Source: Sulfurimonas gotlandica GD1 (GTDB taxonomy: Bacteria; Campylobacterota; Campylobacteria; Campylobacterales; Sulfurimonadaceae). From it: a DNA stretch of 64,000 bases. The notes below the pieces were generated by a model. The model was given only the letters and a program-made list of their open reading frames with translations, searched no databases and was not told the DNA's origin. The position numbers and the translations under genes are program-made. The DNA is taken from NCBI RefSeq assembly GCF_000242915.1, contig NZ_AFRZ01000001.1:2604001-2668000 (forward strand), in the 5' to 3' direction. The stretch's first letter is position 1. Each line of letters starts with the position of its first letter. Shown one piece after another: positions 49,279 to 58,530 of this stretch.

Positions 49279-49351
49279 TATAAATGAGACTTTTTAGCTA
49301 CTTTTATTAATTGTTAATTAATAAATGTGTATATTAAGTCAAAGGACATTT

Positions 49352-50260
49352 ATGCGACAGATTATTTTAATCTTTTTACTTACTCTTGGCCTGTTCGCCA
49401 AAACAATAACTCCAAATGAAGTTTACACTCAGGCAATGCTTATTTCAGATGAAACACATTACTTACTTAAACATTATGGCATCAAGCATGATCATGATGG
49501 CATTGTAAGTCGTACTGCTATAAAAACACAACTCAAGCCACGCAATGTTTGGCAGATGACTTATGAGATAGCTATTAAGATGAATATTCTTAGAACTGCC
49601 CATAAGCTACCTATCATAGAACCGGTTAATATGTCTCCTGTACTTAACTTAAACCCTGATCTAGTGTATGAACAGACACAAAGAATATTGACTGAGATAA
49701 AGATATTTAAATATAGAATGGGCATAAAAAACAGAGAGTTAAAGGAAAAGATATATACAAATAAAACACCATTGGATGTTTTTAATCTTCTTCGAAAAAT
49801 CAGCGCTTCTTTTGATGAACTAAATCAAGCAGAATTTACACCATCTTATGTATTTGGTGAAACAATGCGCGTGTATGATGATCTAACCGAAATTCTGGCG
49901 CATCTAAAAATAAAAGATAATACTATTCCGACAGCCAGAAATGATAAAGCTACGCCAAAAGACACATTTAAAGTATCTATGAATATTTTAACAAAGATAA
50001 AACAGATACAGTTTTCTATGGGGGTAGAGAGCGTTGATTTTTCAGTATTTAAGAAAGATGAGCTAACACCAAGTGATGTCTTTACTATGAGTCAAATGAT
50101 TATAGCTGAACTTCAAACTATTAAGGCATATATAGGGTTGGAACACTATATAACACCTGCTGCTACAACTTACACAGGTAAAACACCTACTGATGTTGAG
50201 CAATTGATGAATTGGAACCTTAGAAAAGTATCATTGATTGATATAAAAGCAGGGGAATAA
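49352..50260 (+). CDS. Periplasmic helical repeat protein, unknown function
   Basis: A 302-residue exported protein; signal peptide MRQIILIFLLTLGLFA, cleaved near residue 16. ATG 49352 follows AAAGGA. The mature part is built of about eight copies of a 38-residue unit beginning with a T/N/K-P-x-D/E-V-F/Y/W motif and continuing as an amphipathic helix, often closing in G-I/V. I see unit starts near residues 20, 61, 101, 139, 163, 201, 239 and 278. I do not recognise a family. It sits one base before a large hybrid kinase and starts the sensory operon, so it may bind or present a periplasmic ligand to the kinase sensor domain. Confidence 0.85.
   Translation: MRQIILIFLLTLGLFAKTITPNEVYTQAMLISDETHYLLKHYGIKHDHDGIVSRTAIKTQLKPRNVWQMTYEIAIKMNILRTAHKLPIIEPVNMSPVLNLNPDLVYEQTQRILTEIKIFKYRMGIKNRELKEKIYTNKTPLDVFNLLRKISASFDELNQAEFTPSYVFGETMRVYDDLTEILAHLKIKDNTIPTARNDKATPKDTFKVSMNILTKIKQIQFSMGVESVDFSVFKKDELTPSDVFTMSQMIIAELQTIKAYIGLEHYITPAATTYTGKTPTDVEQLMNWNLRKVSLIDIKAGE
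49409..50245 (+). repeat. Coding repeat: eight helical units of about 38 residues
   Basis: Protein-level tandem repeat within the periplasmic protein. The units begin TPNEVYTQ, LKPRNVWQ, NPDLVYEQ, TPLDVFNL, TPSYVFGE, TPKDTFKV, TPSDVFTM and TPTDVEQL, and each continues with a helix. The bases have diverged, so it is an old duplication and not a DNA repeat. Spacing between starts varies from about 24 to 41 residues. Confidence 0.7.
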
Positions 50261-50261
50261 T

Positions 50262-53200
50262 ATGAATTTAAATATGTCACTGCAAAATAAGATATTTTCT
50301 ATTTTTATTGTTGTGTTAACTCTTGGTATTGGCTTTGTTGGATGGTATGGATATAAAACTGCTTCTGAAGGTTATATTGAAAGTGCCTATAAGCTTAGTG
50401 AACGTGATACAAATAATCTTACTATTGAGATAGAAGGAAACTTGGGGCATGTTACAAAAGATGCACTCTATATAAAAGAGTTTTATGCCCTTAAAAGATA
50501 TATGATCTGGAAATCAATGTCTGTAGATACAAAAGCACAAATGTGGAAAGATATATTCTCAGATGCACTGCTGGACTTTTTAAAAGCACAAAAAGACTAC
50601 TATAAAATTAGAGTAGTTGATTTAGATGGAAAGGAACTGCTTGTAGTCAAGTATGATGAAAAGAGTAATAGCGCCTATTTGTTGGCAGATTCAGAGCTTC
50701 AAAATAATAGTGGAAGAAACTATTTAGAAGTGCCTAAGACACTAAAGAAAGATGAGTTCTTTATATCAGATATGAATCTAAATATTGAATATGGAAAGAT
50801 TGAACAACCTTTTATTCCTGTTGTAAGATATTCTACACCTATCATCAGTGATAATGGAAATATGATAGGAGTTTTTGTAGTAAATATCTATGCGAATAAT
50901 ATACTTAATATTGTTAATCAAGCGTCTATTAATGGTGCTAAAAAAGGTTTTTCTTACTTTTTAATAGACAAAGAGGGAAATTACCTCTTTAATAAAGATG
51001 AGAGTAAGACATGGGGTTCTCAGATAAAAGGAAAGTCGAACTTTAATGATGATCATTTTAATCTAAAGAAGTTCATGAAAGACAAATCAAAAGGAACTTT
51101 TATACATAACAATAAGATTTACTCTTATCGCGCAGTTCATCCGCTGAAGCAAAACAGTGAGAACTATTGGTACGCAATTTCAAGTGTGGATACGAATATT
51201 GCACTTGAGAAGTTAGATGATTTTAAACAGTTATTTATCTTTATATTACTATTTGTAGTAATTATTAGTTTCTTTATTATTAAGTTTTATTTATTAAAAA
51301 TAACAACGCCATTAGCTCAGGTAACTTCTCAACTAAAAGCACTCTCAAGGGGTGAAATTAAAAAAGAAGAGATCAACTATAGCGGTAATGATGAAATAAG
51401 TGAGATAGTAAATTCAACTCAAAAAGTTATAGATGCTATTGAGACAACAATATCTCAAGCTAATGCAGTTGCAGATGGTGATTTTTCTAAGGAGATAGAA
51501 CTTCTTGGTAAGAATGATCAACTTGGTCTTGCAATTACAGATATGACAAAAAGACTCAAAGAGATAACTTCTTTAGCTAAAAAACTCTCTACTGGAAATT
51601 ATGATACAAAAATCATTGCTAAAAGCAGTGAGGACAGACTTGGTATGGCGCTAATTGATATGATTAAATATCTTGAAGTAGTAGCAAGTGTCGCTGAGTC
51701 AATTGCTGAAGGTAATATTGATGTAGATTACAAAATCGTCGGTGAGGAGGATAGGTTAGGTATTGCAATGCTTAAAATGATTGCTTACCTAAGAGGAATA
51801 GTCTCTCAAGCTGATGCCATAACTAAAAATGATTTTTCTAAGAATATTGAAGTGAAATCAAAAAATGATGAGCTAGGTATTGCTCTTGGCATCATGACTA
51901 ATATGCTACAAGAAAATGATATAAAAAATAAAAATGAAATCTACTTTAGCGATGGTATTGGTGAGTTTAGCGATAAACTTACAGGTATTAGTGACACTAT
52001 GGAACTCTCTAAAAAAGCTATAACAATGGCAAGCAGATATGTAGATGCTTGTAGTGGTGTCGCATATATTTATGACAAAGAAAAAGGTGAACTTGGTCTT
52101 ATCGCATCGTACTCGTTTAATCCAAAAGACAGTTCTTCAAACATATTTAAACTAGGAAATGGAGTAATCGGGCAAGTTGGATTAGAGAAGAAATCTATTC
52201 TTCTTAAAAACGTAGAAAACGAGCACTATGATGTGAAAACAGGCACAACCCTATCAAAGCCCAAGGAAGTATTTGTTCTTCCCCTCATCCATGAAGGGGA
52301 ACTCTTTGGTGTTGCAGAGCTTATGACTTTTGAAAGTTTCAGCAAGGTGCAAAAAGATTATCTTAAAAAGGCCTCTGAAATCTTTACAACATCACTTTTC
52401 GCTGCTACTCAAAATATGCAGATAAAAGTATTACTTGAAGATTCTAAGCGAGCTTATGAAGAGCTGCAAGTGCAGAGTGAAGAACTTCAGGAATCAAACG
52501 TTCAGATGGAGGAGCAACAGCAGCAGCTCACTCTTCAAGCCAAAAGTATGAAAATTAAAAACGATGAATTGCTTCAGGCTAAAGAAGACCTTGATAAGAG
52601 AGCAGATGATTTAGAAAAAGCCAGTAAATATAAAAGCGAGTTCTTGGCAAATATGTCGCATGAACTTCGTACTCCGCTTAACTCGATTATATTACTCTCA
52701 AAACTCCTTACTCAAAACAAGAAAGAGACATTGAGTGATAGTGATGTATCAAAAACTTCGGTTATACATAAAGCAGGTAACGACTTACTACTTCTTATCA
52801 ATGACATTTTGGACTTAAGCAAGATAGAATCTGGGAATATGGAATTAAATGAGAGTGAATTTGATACTAGCGAAATTAGAGAAGAGATTGAAGGTCTTTT
52901 CTCTGAAGTAGCAAAAGAAAAAAATCTAAATTTTGAGGTAAGAGATAGTTTTAACAGAAGTTTTATAGTTGATAAAACAAAACTGCTGCAAATTATTAAA
53001 AACCTTCTCTCTAATGCATTTAAGTTCACAAAATCAGGGGAAGTGTCTCTTTCTGTATTTAAGAAAAATAGAGATATAGTTTTTGAGGTGTCAGACACGG
53101 GTATAGGCATCCCAGAAGCTAAACTAGCTCTTATCTTTGAAGCGTTTAAGCAGGTTGATGGAAGTATAAGCAGAGAGTATGGCGGAACGGGGCTTGGTCT

Positions 53201-53768
53201 TTCTATAAGTAAAACATTCATAAACTTGATGGGTGGGCGTATAGAAGTAGATTCAAAAGAGGGTATAGGCTCCAGCTTTTTGGTAATTCTTCCAATTGAA
53301 AAAGATGACTATGAGAAAGAAACTTCAAGCAAGATAGAAGTCACAGATATTATTCTTGCAGATGATGAGATAGAACTATTTGACAAAGAACTTTTAAAGT
53401 CTAAGAACATCCTAATAGTAGATGATGACAGTAGAAATATTTTTACTCTCTCTTCAGTAGTTCAAGAACTTGGAGCGGATACATACAGTGCCTTAAACGG
53501 TGAAGATGCATTTAAACTTCTAGAAGAGGAAGAAGCAAATATGGATGTTATTCTTATGGATATTATGATGCCTATTATGGACGGATTAAAAACCATTGAG
53601 AAGATTAAAGCAGATGAAAGATTTAAACATATTCCTATCATCGCAGTAACTGCAAAAGTCATGAAAGAAGATAAGAGAATGTGCTATGAAGCCGGTGCAA
53701 ATGATTATCTTGCAAAGCCAATAGACCAAAATGCTCTTATCTCTATGTTAAAAGCGTGGAGCAAGTAG
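50262..53768 (+). CDS. Hybrid histidine kinase with dCache sensor, five HAMP-like repeats, GAF and receiver
   Basis: A 1,168-residue kinase. Membrane segments (about 12-30 and 321-343) flank a Cache-type periplasmic sensor. The cytoplasmic side holds a HAMP domain followed by four tandem HAMP-like units (VADGDFSKEIE, LSTGNYDTKII, IAEGNIDVDYK and ITKNDFSKNIE, each ending in an L-G-I/L-A helix). A GAF domain (about 590-715), a long coiled coil, HisKA with His800 (NMSHELRTP), an ATPase domain (DTGIGI, GGTGLGLSIS) and a receiver with Asp1100 (ILMDIMMPIMDG) follow. It is one base downstream of the repeat-protein gene and directly joined to the CheB-CheR gene, so these act as a unit. It has no HPt; transfer to the downstream receivers needs one. 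Confidence 0.93.
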   Translation: MNLNMSLQNKIFSIFIVVLTLGIGFVGWYGYKTASEGYIESAYKLSERDTNNLTIEIEGNLGHVTKDALYIKEFYALKRYMIWKSMSVDTKAQMWKDIFSDALLDFLKAQKDYYKIRVVDLDGKELLVVKYDEKSNSAYLLADSELQNNSGRNYLEVPKTLKKDEFFISDMNLNIEYGKIEQPFIPVVRYSTPIISDNGNMIGVFVVNIYANNILNIVNQASINGAKKGFSYFLIDKEGNYLFNKDESKTWGSQIKGKSNFNDDHFNLKKFMKDKSKGTFIHNNKIYSYRAVHPLKQNSENYWYAISSVDTNIALEKLDDFKQLFIFILLFVVIISFFIIKFYLLKITTPLAQVTSQLKALSRGEIKKEEINYSGNDEISEIVNSTQKVIDAIETTISQANAVADGDFSKEIELLGKNDQLGLAITDMTKRLKEITSLAKKLSTGNYDTKIIAKSSEDRLGMALIDMIKYLEVVASVAESIAEGNIDVDYKIVGEEDRLGIAMLKMIAYLRGIVSQADAITKNDFSKNIEVKSKNDELGIALGIMTNMLQENDIKNKNEIYFSDGIGEFSDKLTGISDTMELSKKAITMASRYVDACSGVAYIYDKEKGELGLIASYSFNPKDSSSNIFKLGNGVIGQVGLEKKSILLKNVENEHYDVKTGTTLSKPKEVFVLPLIHEGELFGVAELMTFESFSKVQKDYLKKASEIFTTSLFAATQNMQIKVLLEDSKRAYEELQVQSEELQESNVQMEEQQQQLTLQAKSMKIKNDELLQAKEDLDKRADDLEKASKYKSEFLANMSHELRTPLNSIILLSKLLTQNKKETLSDSDVSKTSVIHKAGNDLLLLINDILDLSKIESGNMELNESEFDTSEIREEIEGLFSEVAKEKNLNFEVRDSFNRSFIVDKTKLLQIIKNLLSNAFKFTKSGEVSLSVFKKNRDIVFEVSDTGIGIPEAKLALIFEAFKQVDGSISREYGGTGLGLSISKTFINLMGGRIEVDSKEGIGSSFLVILPIEKDDYEKETSSKIEVTDIILADDEIELFDKELLKSKNILIVDDDSRNIFTLSSVVQELGADTYSALNGEDAFKLLEEEEANMDVILMDIMMPIMDGLKTIEKIKADERFKHIPIIAVTAKVMKEDKRMCYEAGANDYLAKPIDQNALISMLKAWSK

Positions 53769-55439
53769 TTGTTAAAGTTTGTAAAGCAGGGTAGAGAGTG
53801 CAAGATAGAGATTTATGACAATGTAAGTAGTGAAGAAGTTCTTCAACTTAAAGAGCTTTTGGATGAAAGTTTTTATCTCTTTAGCATAAACTTTGCGCGT
53901 ATATATAATATACCGGCTTCTCTTGTAGAATTGCTGTACGAATACATAGAAGTGCTACAAAAAAATATAAACATAGTGGTAAATAAAAGTAGGCTCTCTA
54001 GATACTTGAACTATGTAGGTCTAAAGGGTATATTTGTATCTAAGATAAAAGATAGACAGAGTACAAATCCAAATATAAATATAATAGCTATTGGCGGAAG
54101 TGCAAATAGCAGTGCAAAGATTATAGAGATACTCTCAAATATTGATACTACAAAATTTGCAATTTTTTTAATTCAGCATATCGATCCTCTAAAAGATGGC
54201 ATCTTTGATGAGATATTAGAAAACTACGTAGATAGTAATATCTTCTATGCATCTGAAGGAATGGATGTAAAAGTAGGGCAGATATATTTGGCCTCTAAAG
54301 ATAGACATATGACTGTTAAGAATTCTAAAATACATTTAGAAGATTCTGCTCTTAAAAATGGAGCAAGACCATCTATATCTGTTAGCTTTGAATCTTTGAG
54401 CCAAGAGTATAAAGATAATTTTTGTGGAATTATTACTTGCGGATATGCAACAGACGGTGTTGACTCTCTTGCAACTCTAAAAAGGAACAACTCCGTTGTC
54501 TTAGTTCAGAACCCTGATGATTGTGAGGCCAGCTCAATTCCTAAACAAGCAAAGAATCAAAAAATATATAACTTTATATTTGACACAAGAGATATAGCTT
54601 TTTATCTAAGATGTATGAGTCTACAATATGATACTCTTGATGAGTGGATAACTTTTCTTTTTGATGCAATATACACTAGATATGAGTACGATTTTAGGCT
54701 TTACCAAAGAGATTCTGTGAAGAGAAGAGTTGAGCAGTTTATGATAAAGCATAGAATAGTTGACGTAAAGACATTTGTTGTTTTAGTGATCTTTGACAAG
54801 TCTGCCTTTAAATCTCTTTTTTTAGACCTTTCCATAAATGTAACAGAGTTTTTTAGAGATGTAGAAGCTTCTAAAAAAATGATTGAAATCATCAAAAAAG
54901 AGCACAAAAACTGTTACAATATAAAAATATGGAGTGCAGGTTGCAGCAGTGGAGAAGAGGTTTATTCTACGGCTATTATCTTAAATGAGTTGGGGTTGCT
55001 GCATAAGAGCATACTGTATTCAACAGATTTTAATCCAATAGTAATTGAAGAAGCAAAAAATTCTATTTACTCAATAGAGCGCTTTAACAAGGCAAAAAAA
55101 GCTTACGAAGAGTTAGGCTTTAAGATGCCACTAGAGAACTACTTTGAGATAAATACAAAGTTTGTAAAAGTAAAAGAATATGTAAAACAGAATGTGCTGT
55201 TTTTTGTACATAATTTAGAAAAGGACAGTGTGTTTAATGAGTTTGATATGATTGAGTGTAAAAATGTAATGATTTATTTTAACGAAGAACTAAAGCAAAA
55301 TATTTTTAAGATGTTTTACGATTCACTAAAGTTTGGTGGTCATCTACTTTTAGGACCAAGTGAGAAGCTCCCTGCAAACTTTGAAGACAGGTTTGAAGTA
55401 TGTGATGATGTAAATAAGATATATAGGAAAGTGGCTTAA
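53769..55439 (+). CDS. STAS-CheB-CheR fusion: methylesterase and methyltransferase in one protein
   Basis: A 556-residue fusion. Residues 1-95 resemble a STAS domain, about 102-285 is CheB methylesterase, and about 295-556 is a CheR methyltransferase. The CheB triad appears intact: Ser111 (AIGGSANS), His137 (LIQHID) and Asp229 (GYATDG). CheR shows NVTEFFRD (357-364), the SAM motif IWSAGCSSGEEVYS (387-400) and ENVMIYFN-like KNVMIYFN. Free CheB and CheR act in opposite directions on chemoreceptors. The receiver domain that controls CheB is missing and replaced by STAS. The start is TTG 53769 directly after the kinase stop. No chemoreceptor or CheA gene lies nearby, so the substrate may be the upstream kinase. 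Confidence 0.9.
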   Translation: MLKFVKQGRECKIEIYDNVSSEEVLQLKELLDESFYLFSINFARIYNIPASLVELLYEYIEVLQKNINIVVNKSRLSRYLNYVGLKGIFVSKIKDRQSTNPNINIIAIGGSANSSAKIIEILSNIDTTKFAIFLIQHIDPLKDGIFDEILENYVDSNIFYASEGMDVKVGQIYLASKDRHMTVKNSKIHLEDSALKNGARPSISVSFESLSQEYKDNFCGIITCGYATDGVDSLATLKRNNSVVLVQNPDDCEASSIPKQAKNQKIYNFIFDTRDIAFYLRCMSLQYDTLDEWITFLFDAIYTRYEYDFRLYQRDSVKRRVEQFMIKHRIVDVKTFVVLVIFDKSAFKSLFLDLSINVTEFFRDVEASKKMIEIIKKEHKNCYNIKIWSAGCSSGEEVYSTAIILNELGLLHKSILYSTDFNPIVIEEAKNSIYSIERFNKAKKAYEELGFKMPLENYFEINTKFVKVKEYVKQNVLFFVHNLEKDSVFNEFDMIECKNVMIYFNEELKQNIFKMFYDSLKFGGHLLLGPSEKLPANFEDRFEVCDDVNKIYRKVA

Positions 55440-56710
55440 TGAAGAGAGTTTTATGTGTTGATGATATAGAAACAAATCTTTTTACTTTAGAAGCTCTTTT
55501 TGAGACTCATCATAGTGATAAGTACGTTGTAGTTACAGCAATGTCTGGAAAAGAAGCACTAGAGATTTTACTTTGCCAAAAAATAGATATGATACTGCTT
55601 GATGTAATGATGCCAGAACTTGACGGCTATGAGACTGCAAAACTTATTCTTAGCAATAAAAAGACAAAAGATATCCCGATTATCTTTATAACAGCGAAAA
55701 AAGATCAGGACACAATCTCTAGATGCTACGATGTTGGTGGCGTTGACTATTTGAGTAAGCCATATAATGAGCAAGAGTTGTTTGTAAGAATAAAGTTTCA
55801 TCTTGATATGGTTGAAAATAAAAGAGTTTTAGAAGTTGAGAAAAAATTTACTCAAGATATCTTAGACATGCAAGATAATTTAGTCGTTATTTCAGATGGG
55901 AAAAAGGTTGTAAAGATAAATAGAGCTGTAACAAAGCTTTTTTGTCTTAAAAGCATTGATGACTTTATAGCTCAACATACATGTATTTGTTTCACATTTG
56001 TACATGAAGATGGATATTTTCACTTAGGTTTAGTAAATGATGATGAGCTTTGGATAGATGTATTGCTAGAGCAACTAAAATCAAAAGATGTTCTCGTCTT
56101 AATAAATGATATAGAAAATTCACAATTAAACTCGTTTGATATAAAAGCAAAAGTTTTTGGAAAAGATTTTCTTGTTACATTGACAAATATAACATCATTT
56201 GATGCCGAATCAAAATATAATGAGCATGAAGCATCTTACGACAGTCTTACAAATATTTATAACAGAACTAAGTTAAATAACCTTTTTACTATACAGATAG
56301 AGACAGCAAAAGTAAATAATAACACTTTTGCTTTTGTTATGCTCGACATTGATTACTTTAAAGCTGTAAATGATAATTATGGGCACTTAATCGGAGATGC
56401 AGTTTTAATACAGATGACAGATCTGATTAAGAAGCATATACGTGATAGTGATATCTTCGCAAGATGGGGTGGAGAAGAGTTTGTACTTCTTCTTCCACAT
56501 GTAGGTTTGAAAAAAGCTGAGGAAATAGCGAACTATTTAAGAACTAAAATAGAAGCAGATAAGTTTCCAGAAATAGATAGCATTACCTGTAGTTTTGGTG
56601 TTACGTGCTACAAAGATGGAGATAACATAGACAGTATTATAAAAAGGGCAGATTCAGCTCTTTATGATGCAAAAGATGCAGGAAGAAACATAGTATGCAC
56701 AGTCAGTTAA
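55439..56710 (+). CDS. Response regulator diguanylate cyclase (REC-GGDEF)
   Basis: A 423-residue protein: receiver (1-125) with Asp55 (MILLDVMMPELDG) and Lys in LSKPYNEQE, a linker about 130-255 with a weak PAS-like pattern (QDNLVVISDGKKVVKINRA), and a GGDEF domain with GGEEF at 344-348. RDSD nine residues before GGEEF is an RxxD feedback site. Output is c-di-GMP synthesis on phosphorylation by the kinase. The start shares a base with the stop of the CheB-CheR gene (TAATG), and the 3' end overlaps the next gene by 16 bases. Confidence 0.94.
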   Translation: MKRVLCVDDIETNLFTLEALFETHHSDKYVVVTAMSGKEALEILLCQKIDMILLDVMMPELDGYETAKLILSNKKTKDIPIIFITAKKDQDTISRCYDVGGVDYLSKPYNEQELFVRIKFHLDMVENKRVLEVEKKFTQDILDMQDNLVVISDGKKVVKINRAVTKLFCLKSIDDFIAQHTCICFTFVHEDGYFHLGLVNDDELWIDVLLEQLKSKDVLVLINDIENSQLNSFDIKAKVFGKDFLVTLTNITSFDAESKYNEHEASYDSLTNIYNRTKLNNLFTIQIETAKVNNNTFAFVMLDIDYFKAVNDNYGHLIGDAVLIQMTDLIKKHIRDSDIFARWGGEEFVLLLPHVGLKKAEEIANYLRTKIEADKFPEIDSITCSFGVTCYKDGDNIDSIIKRADSALYDAKDAGRNIVCTVS

Positions 56711-58530
56711 TAAATAACTACAACATCCTGTGTGTTGATGATAATCAGAATAACCTTTTTACACTAAGTGCACTGCTTGAAAATAGTGGCAATATTAATG
56801 TCATAGAGGCTTTGGGTGCAAAGGCAGGACTTGATAAGTTGCTTTTGGAAAAGATAGATCTTATTCTTCTTGATGTTCAGATGCCTGAGATGAACGGTTT
56901 TGAAGTAGCAAGGCTTGTAAAAGCAAATAGGAAAACAAAAGATATCCCTATTATCTTTGTAACAGCCGTCTTTAAAAGTGAAGAGTTCATAAAAGAGGGC
57001 TTTGAGATAGGGGCTGTTGATTATTTAACTAAGCCTATAGATGATAATCAACTACTAAATAAGATAATGCTTTATTTAGAGATATTTGAAAAAAATCATA
57101 AGATTATGCAGAGTGAGAAAAAGTTTGTTGACATAGCTCAAAGTATTGGTGATGGTATTTATACTCTAGACCTAAACAATAAAGCCACTTTTATAAATAA
57201 TCAGGCACTTAATAAGCTTGGGTTTGACTACAGAGAACTTATGGGAAAAGAGATTCATGATTATATTCACTATAAAGACATTAATAATAGACCTATAAAA
57301 TCCAGTGAGTGTAAAATTCATAAAGCGATGATAAGTGGTGAAGCTTATAAAGATGACAATGAATATTTTATAAAAAAAGACGGTAGCTTTTTATCTGTCT
57401 CAGTACTCGCTACACCACTGTATATAGACAGTGAAATTGTTGGATCAGTTACGGTCTTTAGAGATAACACAGAAAAAGAAAAGATTCTCACACTAGAAGA
57501 AGAGAAGATTAAAAATCAAGAGCAGATAATTCATTCTATGATTGATATGATTGAGTCTCGTGACTCCTATACAGCCGGTCATACAAAAAGAGTTGCACAC
57601 TATTGTGAGCTTATTGCAACCGAGATGCAATACTCTAAAGATGATATAAATCTCTTAAAAAAAGCAGCTTGGTTACACGACATAGGAAAAATATCTACAC
57701 CTGACAGTGTACTTCTTAAGCCAAACAGATTAAATAAAGTAGAATATAAACTTATTCAAGAACACTTATCAAGTGGTTATGAGATGCTAAGCAAGATAGA
57801 TGACTATAGAGTTATTGCAGATATTATGAGGGAGCATCATGAAAAGTACGATGGAAGTGGATATCCAAGAGGTTTAAAGGCAAACGCTATTATGCCGCTA
57901 AGCCGGATTATGATAGTGGCAGATGCTTTTGATGCCATGACAACTAACAGAGTTTATAAGCCTAAGAAAAGTCTGTCAGTTGCACTTCAAGAACTTGAAG
58001 ATTTAAGTGCTGAGCATTTTCATCCAGAAGTAGTTGAGGCTTCTTTAAAGGCACTGGCTAATGTAGATGTAAGTGATGATACTTCTCAACTTCCTAAGAC
58101 ATCTATGGAAGAGCATAGATTTTCTTACTTTTACAAAGACAGACTTACTGATCTTTTTATCATAGACTATCTCTCTTTGATTTTAAGATACCATTTAGAT
58201 TCTGATTCTGTATATCTTTACAGTGTTAAGCTCAATAACTTTACTGAGTACAACAGAAAATTTGGCTGGTCAAATGGCGATAAATTTCTTATAGCTTTCG
58301 CAAGTTTTATAGATAATCTTTATGATAATACTGTTGTATTTAGAATAGAGGGTGATGACTTTATGATTTTGAGTGAGATCAAAAGAGCAACTTTAAAAGA
58401 AGATATTCTAAAAAGTAATATTTTAAAAGATACACAACTTGGTCTTGGTGTTAGTGAAAAATATATTGAAAATATTAGAGCAAAAGATGAGAAAACACTA
58501 TCTGAAGAGTTTAAAAAAGACCTTAGTTAG
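56695..58530 (+). CDS. Response regulator REC-PAS-HD-GYP with degenerate GGDEF tail
   Basis: A 611-residue protein: receiver (about 8-130) with Asp60 (LILLDVQMPEMNG), a PAS domain (about 140-260), an HD-GYP domain (about 278-460) and a C-terminal GGDEF-like fold (about 475-605). The HD-GYP motifs are complete (WLHDIGK, HHEKYDGSGYPRG, ADAFDAMTTNRVY), so it should degrade c-di-GMP. The tail carries RIEGDDF (550-556) where an active cyclase has GGDEF, and no inhibitory RxxD, so it probably senses or binds nucleotide rather than making c-di-GMP. It ends the sensory operon beside its opposite enzyme. Confidence 0.9.
   Translation: MHSQLINNYNILCVDDNQNNLFTLSALLENSGNINVIEALGAKAGLDKLLLEKIDLILLDVQMPEMNGFEVARLVKANRKTKDIPIIFVTAVFKSEEFIKEGFEIGAVDYLTKPIDDNQLLNKIMLYLEIFEKNHKIMQSEKKFVDIAQSIGDGIYTLDLNNKATFINNQALNKLGFDYRELMGKEIHDYIHYKDINNRPIKSSECKIHKAMISGEAYKDDNEYFIKKDGSFLSVSVLATPLYIDSEIVGSVTVFRDNTEKEKILTLEEEKIKNQEQIIHSMIDMIESRDSYTAGHTKRVAHYCELIATEMQYSKDDINLLKKAAWLHDIGKISTPDSVLLKPNRLNKVEYKLIQEHLSSGYEMLSKIDDYRVIADIMREHHEKYDGSGYPRGLKANAIMPLSRIMIVADAFDAMTTNRVYKPKKSLSVALQELEDLSAEHFHPEVVEASLKALANVDVSDDTSQLPKTSMEEHRFSYFYKDRLTDLFIIDYLSLILRYHLDSDSVYLYSVKLNNFTEYNRKFGWSNGDKFLIAFASFIDNLYDNTVVFRIEGDDFMILSEIKRATLKEDILKSNILKDTQLGLGVSEKYIENIRAKDEKTLSEEFKKDLS

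Follow-up and report, generated by a model that had tools for sequence, protein, structure and literature searches.

Repeat gene and downstream operon

The window, i.e., the whole stretch of 64,000 nucleotides that was analyzed, carries on its forward strand a gene for an eight-helix repeat protein of 302 amino acids plus stop codon (positions 49352..50260), which was delimited from the open reading frame, a profile of the repeat unit, an AlphaFold2 model, and homologues. An alternative, longer reading frame would start at 49325. The start at 49352 is preferred because the sequence AAAGGA (49341..49346, forward strand), which we infer to resemble a ribosome-binding site, lies five bases 5' of it, and because the resulting product would begin with a typical signal peptide. 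The likely signal peptide comprises residues 1-16 (49352..49399, forward strand). A crude hydropathy rule detects an N-terminal hydrophobic stretch in 68 of the 73 distinct proteins of the family, and it is from this that export is inferred. A residue check of the sequence indicates that the protein of the window has no cysteine. No promoter was identifiable, there being five consensus sites vs 8.2 expected by chance.

The repeat gene had been predicted to be the first gene of a kinase operon, a placement supported by the poor conservation of the genes upstream of it across relatives vs the conservation of those downstream. One base after its stop codon begins a gene for a hybrid histidine kinase of 1168 amino acids (50262..53768, forward strand), for which Pfam recognizes a PF21623/dCache sensor (residues 89-297) together with HAMP, GAF, HisKA, HATPase, and receiver domains. 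Among solved domains, 2P7J (E value 7e-10) and 3LID (E value 8e-10) are relatives of this sensor. Pfam further identifies, on the same strand, a CheB-CheR fusion of 556 amino acids (53769..55439), a receiver-GGDEF protein (55439..56710) whose GGEEF motif leads us to infer synthesis of c-di-GMP, and a receiver-PAS-HD_5 protein with a partial GGDEF domain (56695..58530). The last is inferred to break down c-di-GMP, and its HD_5 domain is one which we take to be of the HD-GYP type. The CheB-CheR fusion is situated between the hybrid kinase and the receiver-GGDEF protein, and no chemoreceptor is present among the five genes of the operon. Its homologue occupies the equivalent place at two other loci (L031 and L036), and genes of equal length (555 amino acids; sequences not compared) are found at five more (L051, L052, L055, L056, and L060).

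Repeat units, predicted structure and database comparisons

The unit profile has 24 positions and was trained on 241 units from 31 other rows of the family alignment. It finds exactly eight non-overlapping matches in the protein of the window, at residues 19-41, 62-81, 101-122, 138-159, 162-185, 201-222, 238-260, and 277-296, with a total of 135.4 bits, vs a maximum of 8.2 bits among shuffles of the mature sequence (n = 300). Because the training units were cut at the positions given by the original prediction (unit 2 at residue 62), the profile is not blind to those positions. When the profile was compared with itself, the predicted register gave the best score for each of the 21 unit pairs that leave out unit 2, and all seven pairs that include unit 2 score best one residue off. 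Thus the predicted starts stand for seven units, while unit 2 begins at residue 62 rather than 61. The T-P-x-D-V-F motif that had been taken to typify the repeat occurs in strict form in some units only, and is replaced elsewhere, e.g., by K-P-R-N-V-W in unit 2 and N-P-D-L-V-Y in unit 3.

AlphaFold2, run with 32 sequences, returned a model of the protein of the window with a pLDDT of 92.3 and a pTM of 0.89. The model includes helices at residues 21-41, 63-83, 102-123, 140-158, 164-184, 202-222, 240-260, and 279-293, along with a signal helix and two short helices, and it has no strand. These eight helices are 15-22 residues long, each starting at a unit, and fall at the positions foreseen for the repeats; the linkers between them are 16-21 residues long, with the exception of five residues between helices 4 and 5. 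With the profile and the model both giving eight, the claim of eight tandem repeats is borne out, and the repeat architecture can be regarded as confirmed. From profile and model taken together, the units (all on the forward strand) are assigned to residues 20-41 (unit 1; 49409..49474), 62-83 (unit 2; 49535..49600), 101-123 (unit 3; 49652..49720), 139-158 (unit 4; 49766..49825), 163-184 (unit 5, after the short linker from unit 4; 49838..49903), 201-222 (unit 6; 49952..50017), 239-260 (unit 7; 50066..50131), and 278-293 (unit 8; 50183..50230). An analysis of residue conservation additionally marks R64, Q68, K76, N78, and R81 in unit 2, R111 and E115 in unit 3, S151 and D155 in unit 4, and E253, Q255, and K258 in unit 7.

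For a relative of 596 amino acids, the AlphaFold2 model (pLDDT 82.6, pTM 0.64) shows sixteen helices of this kind besides a few short ones; the short linker recurs, following helices 4 and 12, and the whole would correspond to the eight-helix module present twice. Because the helices are about 20 residues long and all linkers but the one of five residues measure 16-21, the model of the protein of the window suggests, by inference, that its helices run parallel to one another and do not form a classical helix-hairpin solenoid. A shorter member, from genome G406, matches positions 131-283 of the profile only; beyond its likely signal peptide it is 174 residues long and, judged by eye, seemingly comprises about five units. 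At locus L044 (G159:C43), an in-frame stop near the start, from either sequencing error or decay, splits a repeat gene of ~600 amino acids.

No Pfam family lies above its cut-off for the protein of the window. The best match, PexRD54_WY (PF22748), was rejected, since it reaches 16.6 bits vs a cut-off of 27 and covers 14 residues only, and EzrA-like matches were rejected as short or far below cut-off. Among 32 family members, the commonest sub-threshold Pfam match occurs in two only (best E value 0.0098). NCBIfam likewise has nothing above cut-off for the protein of the window (one match, 12.5 bits vs a cut-off of 1073), PHROGs has nothing at an E value of 1 or below, and no PDB sequence matches at an E value of 10 or below, with a single match (E value 0.17) for the family profile. 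Foldseek found nothing in the PDB at an E value of 0.001 or below for the models of the 302-residue protein (best E value 1.4) or the 596-residue relative (best E value 0.23), and nothing at that threshold in BFVD (best E value 0.92). A second look at the PDB with VIA-align gave a best Z of 5.9 over 102 residues, which is in the range common for helical bundles. Known classes of protein were also considered individually. Pfam families of solute-binding proteins (SBPs) are not matched at an E value of 1 or below by the protein of the window, and none is among the nine families matched at 0.1 or below by the 32 members; nor is the two-lobed alpha/beta (Venus flytrap) form of an SBP met by the confident model, which is all-helical. 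The protein has no LTXXQ-type (CpxP/Spy) Pfam match at an E value of 1 or below, and TPR, HEAT, and ARM repeat profiles of Pfam are unmatched at 1 or below by this protein and at 0.1 or below by the 32 members.

The original prediction had recognized no family, and with nothing acceptable in Pfam, NCBIfam, PHROGs, PDB sequences, or the Foldseek searches of the PDB and BFVD, that statement holds. A new fold is suggested and not shown, the structure comparison having been limited to the PDB and BFVD. A literature search, which did not extend to the full-text level, found no description of the repeat family and no paper naming PF21623. We propose a family characterized by units that the profile detects and by a receptor or Cache gene next downstream, and the protein of the window meets both criteria.

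Distribution, neighbouring genes and sensor relationships

Three samples were searched: the window's own order (298 genomes), the order of G298, which is the genome of the record 'Thiotrichaceae bacterium BB3' (42 genomes), and the class of G298, which we take to be Gammaproteobacteria (369 genomes). The profile search found 23 family genes in 19 of the 298 genomes of the first sample, the window's genome having a single copy, and 19 genes in 17 of the 42 genomes of the second. In the third, the family is present in 17 of 369 genomes, with 16 genes beyond those already counted. A search of the window's order with the single protein had matched 23 of 298 genomes at an E value of 0.01 or below; four of these (G130, G155, G262, and G266; E values 0.003-0.007) were later excluded, as their matches have internal stops and were not recovered by the profile at 1e-6 or below. 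Named records with the family (n = 33) include Sulfurimonas, Arcobacteraceae, Hydrogenimonas, Thiovulum, Thiotrichaceae, Thiomargarita, a Methylococcales, a Magnetococcales, Mariprofundus, Candidatus Magnetocorallium, and bins labelled Nitrospinota and Persephonella. Many of these genera inhabit redox gradients, where sulfur or iron sustains them. The titles of 31 of the 33 records describe them as metagenome bins, so that an isolated unexpected placement could stem from faulty binning. No copy of the protein of the window was found on plasmids at an E value of 0.001 or below.

Directly downstream of the 58 family genes from the three samples is a gene with a PF21623 dCache-type sensor in 32 cases, another receptor (chemoreceptors, GGDEF or PAS proteins, kinases) in 12, a secreted Cache-like protein in six, no receptor or Cache gene in seven, and a contig end in one. 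In the window's order, a PF21623 kinase or SpoIIE protein is next downstream on the same strand in 18 of 23 cases, and in 17 of these 18 it lies within 20 bases or overlaps. Within G004, two family genes are followed by PAS and PAS-GGDEF-EAL proteins, whose membrane segments were assigned by eye, and a third is followed by a chemoreceptor (HAMP, MCPsignal). Locus L049 (G004:C44) has the appearance of a small signalling island, two repeat paralogues being interspersed among PAS, GGDEF, and EAL proteins and a receiver. The 19 genes from the order of G298 are followed by eight PF21623-type kinases (at gaps of up to about 450 bases), six secreted Cache-like proteins, and one contig end, with four lacking such neighbours. 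The 16 further genes from its class are followed by six PF21623-type kinases, five chemoreceptors, one chemoreceptor split in two frames, one HAMP-GGDEF protein, and two other hybrid kinases, with one lacking a receptor. Copies without an adjoining receptor or Cache gene are those of G079, G011:C67 (Mur ligase next), G468 (methyltransferase next), G298, and G314, and the second copies in G304 and G305. The copy in G011:C67 (L050) encodes a member of 569 amino acids without a visible signal peptide, beside Mur ligase and Omp85 genes and no receptor. Among the 33 named records, which partly overlap the genome samples, our own sensor profile indicates a PF21623-type partner in 29; two have contig ends, and two (L062 and L065) have no such partner.

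When loci are compared in pairs, homology (BLASTP, E value 1e-5 or below) joins the downstream neighbours in 1147 of 2485 pairs and the upstream neighbours in only 41 of 2016, which places the family's link with the downstream gene, shared kinase domains inflating the downstream count. All 19 genomes of the window's order with a strong family match carry PF21623 vs 72 of 298 overall; the corresponding hypergeometric value, 2.5e-13, takes no account of relatedness and is not read as a probability here. Beside the constant repeat and sensor, the output modules vary, and include a hybrid kinase with GAF, a plain kinase, a kinase with Hpt, and a SpoIIE phosphatase. Since our sensor profile was built from six repeat-linked proteins, its E values favour linked proteins. 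PF21623 itself was confirmed at all 18 linked loci in the window's order and elsewhere at L184, L192, L201, L240, L241, L242, L243, and L251, while for the partner at L239, and for six of the eight kinases from the order of G298, the assignment comes from our profile and not from PF21623. Gene calls are longest open reading frames, so that starts and small overlaps are approximate, and the repeat frame of L067 was placed by hand. The association of the family with receptors is well supported, and common descent of a two-gene cassette accounts for some of the adjacency and some of the residue pattern described below.

The secreted Cache-like neighbours (set L193-L197 and L199) are proteins of ~243 amino acids with a likely signal peptide in G309-G312, and tandem duplicates of 462-465 amino acids in G330 and G331. 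Three of the six match dCache_1 weakly (E values 0.0044, 0.053, and 0.047), all below the cut-off. Every one of the 42 genomes in the order of G298 has relatives of the Cache-like domain, which, among the matches listed, lie mostly in frames of 800-1700 amino acids; in the chemoreceptor of L209, the matching stretch overlaps a dCache_1 match (42.1 bits, cut-off 45). Because their relatives sit in such large frames, including that chemoreceptor, we infer that the secreted proteins may be free copies of a receptor sensor domain without the signalling part. The chemoreceptors beside the repeat gene at L244-L247, L249, and L255 have no recognized periplasmic Pfam domain at an E value of 0.01 or below (0.001 for L245); that of L246 has a sub-threshold Tweety match in its periplasmic part.

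A tree of the sensors was made with 106 rows, following an earlier one of 94, both by short searches without bootstrap and with only part of the PF21623 matches as unlinked rows. The 94-row tree omits 16 loci that duplicate others and 10 identical domains, and the 106-row tree four identical domains and one short one; in the latter, L201 (G298) was entered twice under two labels. A branch with SH-aLRT 97 separates 46 labelled repeat-linked sensors, L136, L201 (twice), L251, and four unlinked sensors from the other 52 unlinked sensors, and the 94-row tree gives the same split. L251 is labelled unlinked, yet a repeat gene ends three bases before its kinase, an opposite-strand frame having been called in its place. 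L136 (G079) and L201 (G298) come from genomes whose repeat gene sits elsewhere, on another contig; as the other-contig kinase of G298 starts only 151 bases from the contig end, it may have a repeat gene of its own beyond. In the genomes of the four unlinked sensors inside the linked side (L088, L140, L141, and L144) no repeat gene was found; they could reflect partner loss and be useful as natural controls.

The kinases paired with ~600-residue proteins form a clade (SH-aLRT 99), and the ~300- and ~600-residue proteins pair with different sensor clades across phyla with one short exception, the protein of G406, which pairs with a sensor of the ~600-residue clade (L251), against a strict length rule. 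Two ~600-residue proteins found in the order and class of G298 after the pattern was first seen (L192 and L243) have sensors in the ~600-residue clade, and two ~300-residue pairs that are also present in G556 have theirs in the other. Therefore, from one phylum to another, a given repeat length mostly comes with the same sensor subtype. It is in this respect that the protein being a mere operon neighbour with an unrelated periplasmic role, carried along with the receptor gene as a cassette, seems very improbable, for although unlinked copies and non-receptor neighbours exist, the receptor neighbours are of several unrelated kinds, length class tracks sensor clade with the one exception, and in two genomes whose copy is unlinked a kinase of the clade is still present at another site.

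Possible function and comparison with known systems

Seven polar residues follow the class of partner. In the family profile alignment, R64, Q68, N78, R81, R111, E115, and Q255 are each kept in 42-46 of the 46 PF21623-linked members, in 0-4 of the 10 members beside other receptors, and in none of the seven rows of the secreted-Cache subgroup, which consists of the six with an adjoining Cache-like gene and L198 at a contig end. The counts for other receptors are lowered because helix 2 is a gap in three of those 10 rows; both PAS-linked members keep R64 and N78 and not the other five. K76, S151, D155, E253, and K258 are conserved more widely. Each of the seven residues is retained by 5-7 of the eight members that adjoin neither PF21623 nor another receptor, which is consistent with a partner encoded at another place in the genome or, for L069, beyond the contig end. 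Going by the alignment alone, the seven are candidates for a docking face or ligand site used with the PF21623 receptor class, for which there are no binding data; because partner class follows phylogeny, the pattern is a lead and not proof.

The original prediction had further suggested that the protein is a partner of the kinase sensor. Adjacency across phyla, the sensor tree, and the residues that follow partner class lend this strong support from gene context, while evidence of physical interaction is absent. We consider it probable, though far from settled, that the exported all-helical repeat proteins are periplasmic accessory subunits (co-receptors) of transmembrane receptors, with the protein of the window serving the hybrid kinase; binding is inferred. 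According to one source, it may be a binding protein carrying its ligand, rather than the ligand itself, that stimulates a receptor, as is stated there of SBPs acting on chemoreceptors, on sensor kinases, and on diguanylate cyclases or phosphodiesterases (PMC9602780). We take the repeat family to work like SBPs because the same kinds of receptor adjoin it and most of its members have a likely signal peptide by the crude hydropathy rule, yet they are not SBPs. The protein of the window would be secreted to the periplasm, dock on the PF21623 dCache-type domain of the adjoining kinase, and present or report an external signal; ligand binding and the direction of control are likewise inferred. The kinase would then act on the CheB-CheR, receiver-GGDEF, and receiver-HD_5 proteins, and it is because the operon adds these three that we infer a probable c-di-GMP output. 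More broadly, and only tentatively, since it may well prove wrong, we suggest that SBPs are not alone in loading receptors from the periplasm and that a second class does so with a repeat fold unmatched in the PDB. It would turn some external signal into a response of kinases, chemoreceptors, and diguanylate cyclases alike, would be spread among bacteria of habitats marked by sulfur, metals, or redox gradients, and would carry a partner code in the polar residues of units 2, 3, and 7.

The same residue set would fit a docking face as well as a pocket, and this leaves room for a periplasmic inhibitor or stress gauge resembling CpxP, one that holds the sensor off until titrated by a surface, misfolded protein, or an envelope component, without a small ligand. 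An all-helical protein, by inference exported and linked 1:1 with a sensor, would suit that role. We nonetheless regard it as unlikely, given that LTXXQ-type Pfam matches are lacking at the threshold stated above and that the family also adjoins chemoreceptors and a diguanylate cyclase, receptor types that ligand-loaded SBPs are described as targeting (PMC9602780). The long arrays of eight or 16 predicted helices, the c-di-GMP-type genes of the operon, and the one copy adjoining a Mur ligase could instead point to a binder of an envelope polymer (peptidoglycan or polysaccharide) that anchors or spaces the receptor, which would read mechanical or surface contact. This appears improbable, as no polymer-binding Pfam domain is present and the Mur ligase is a neighbour at a single locus, where the copy has no visible signal peptide.

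Beyond the original prediction, the analysis adds a family with several receptor classes, a match between protein length and sensor, and a short list of residues. The signal is unknown for many transmembrane receptors. Should the repeat proteins prove to be signal-binding subunits, their own sensor domain would not by itself suffice to understand such kinases and chemoreceptors or to screen them for ligands. The family offers a countable set of receptor pairs for direct tests of the partner, the docking residues, and the signal.

TPR, HEAT, and other helical solenoids are built of tandem helical units of roughly 40 residues. The repeat protein shares tandem helical units of about this length, but it has one helix per unit followed by a long linker, and no Pfam match. 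CpxP and Spy are periplasmic helical regulators, exported helical proteins of the kind that controls a kinase. The repeat protein resembles them as an exported helical protein found with a kinase, its control of the kinase being inferred, and differs in architecture, in the range of receptors, and in the missing LTXXQ-type match. According to a further source, LuxQ, which has tandem PDCs, senses AI-2 via LuxP (PMC8534201). LuxP-LuxQ and other SBP/receptor pairs have in common with the present pairs an exported soluble protein that goes with a transmembrane receptor of the PDC/dCache type, and an overlapping range of receptors; unlike the SBPs, the repeat protein is all-helical, without strands or an SBP Pfam match. 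The same source tabulates the TorT-TorS pair and describes the TorS sensor as all-helical (PMC8534201). On that account, both systems join a partner protein to a kinase, but in TorS it is the sensor that is all-helical, whereas in the present pairs that description applies to the partner, the sensor being of the dCache type.
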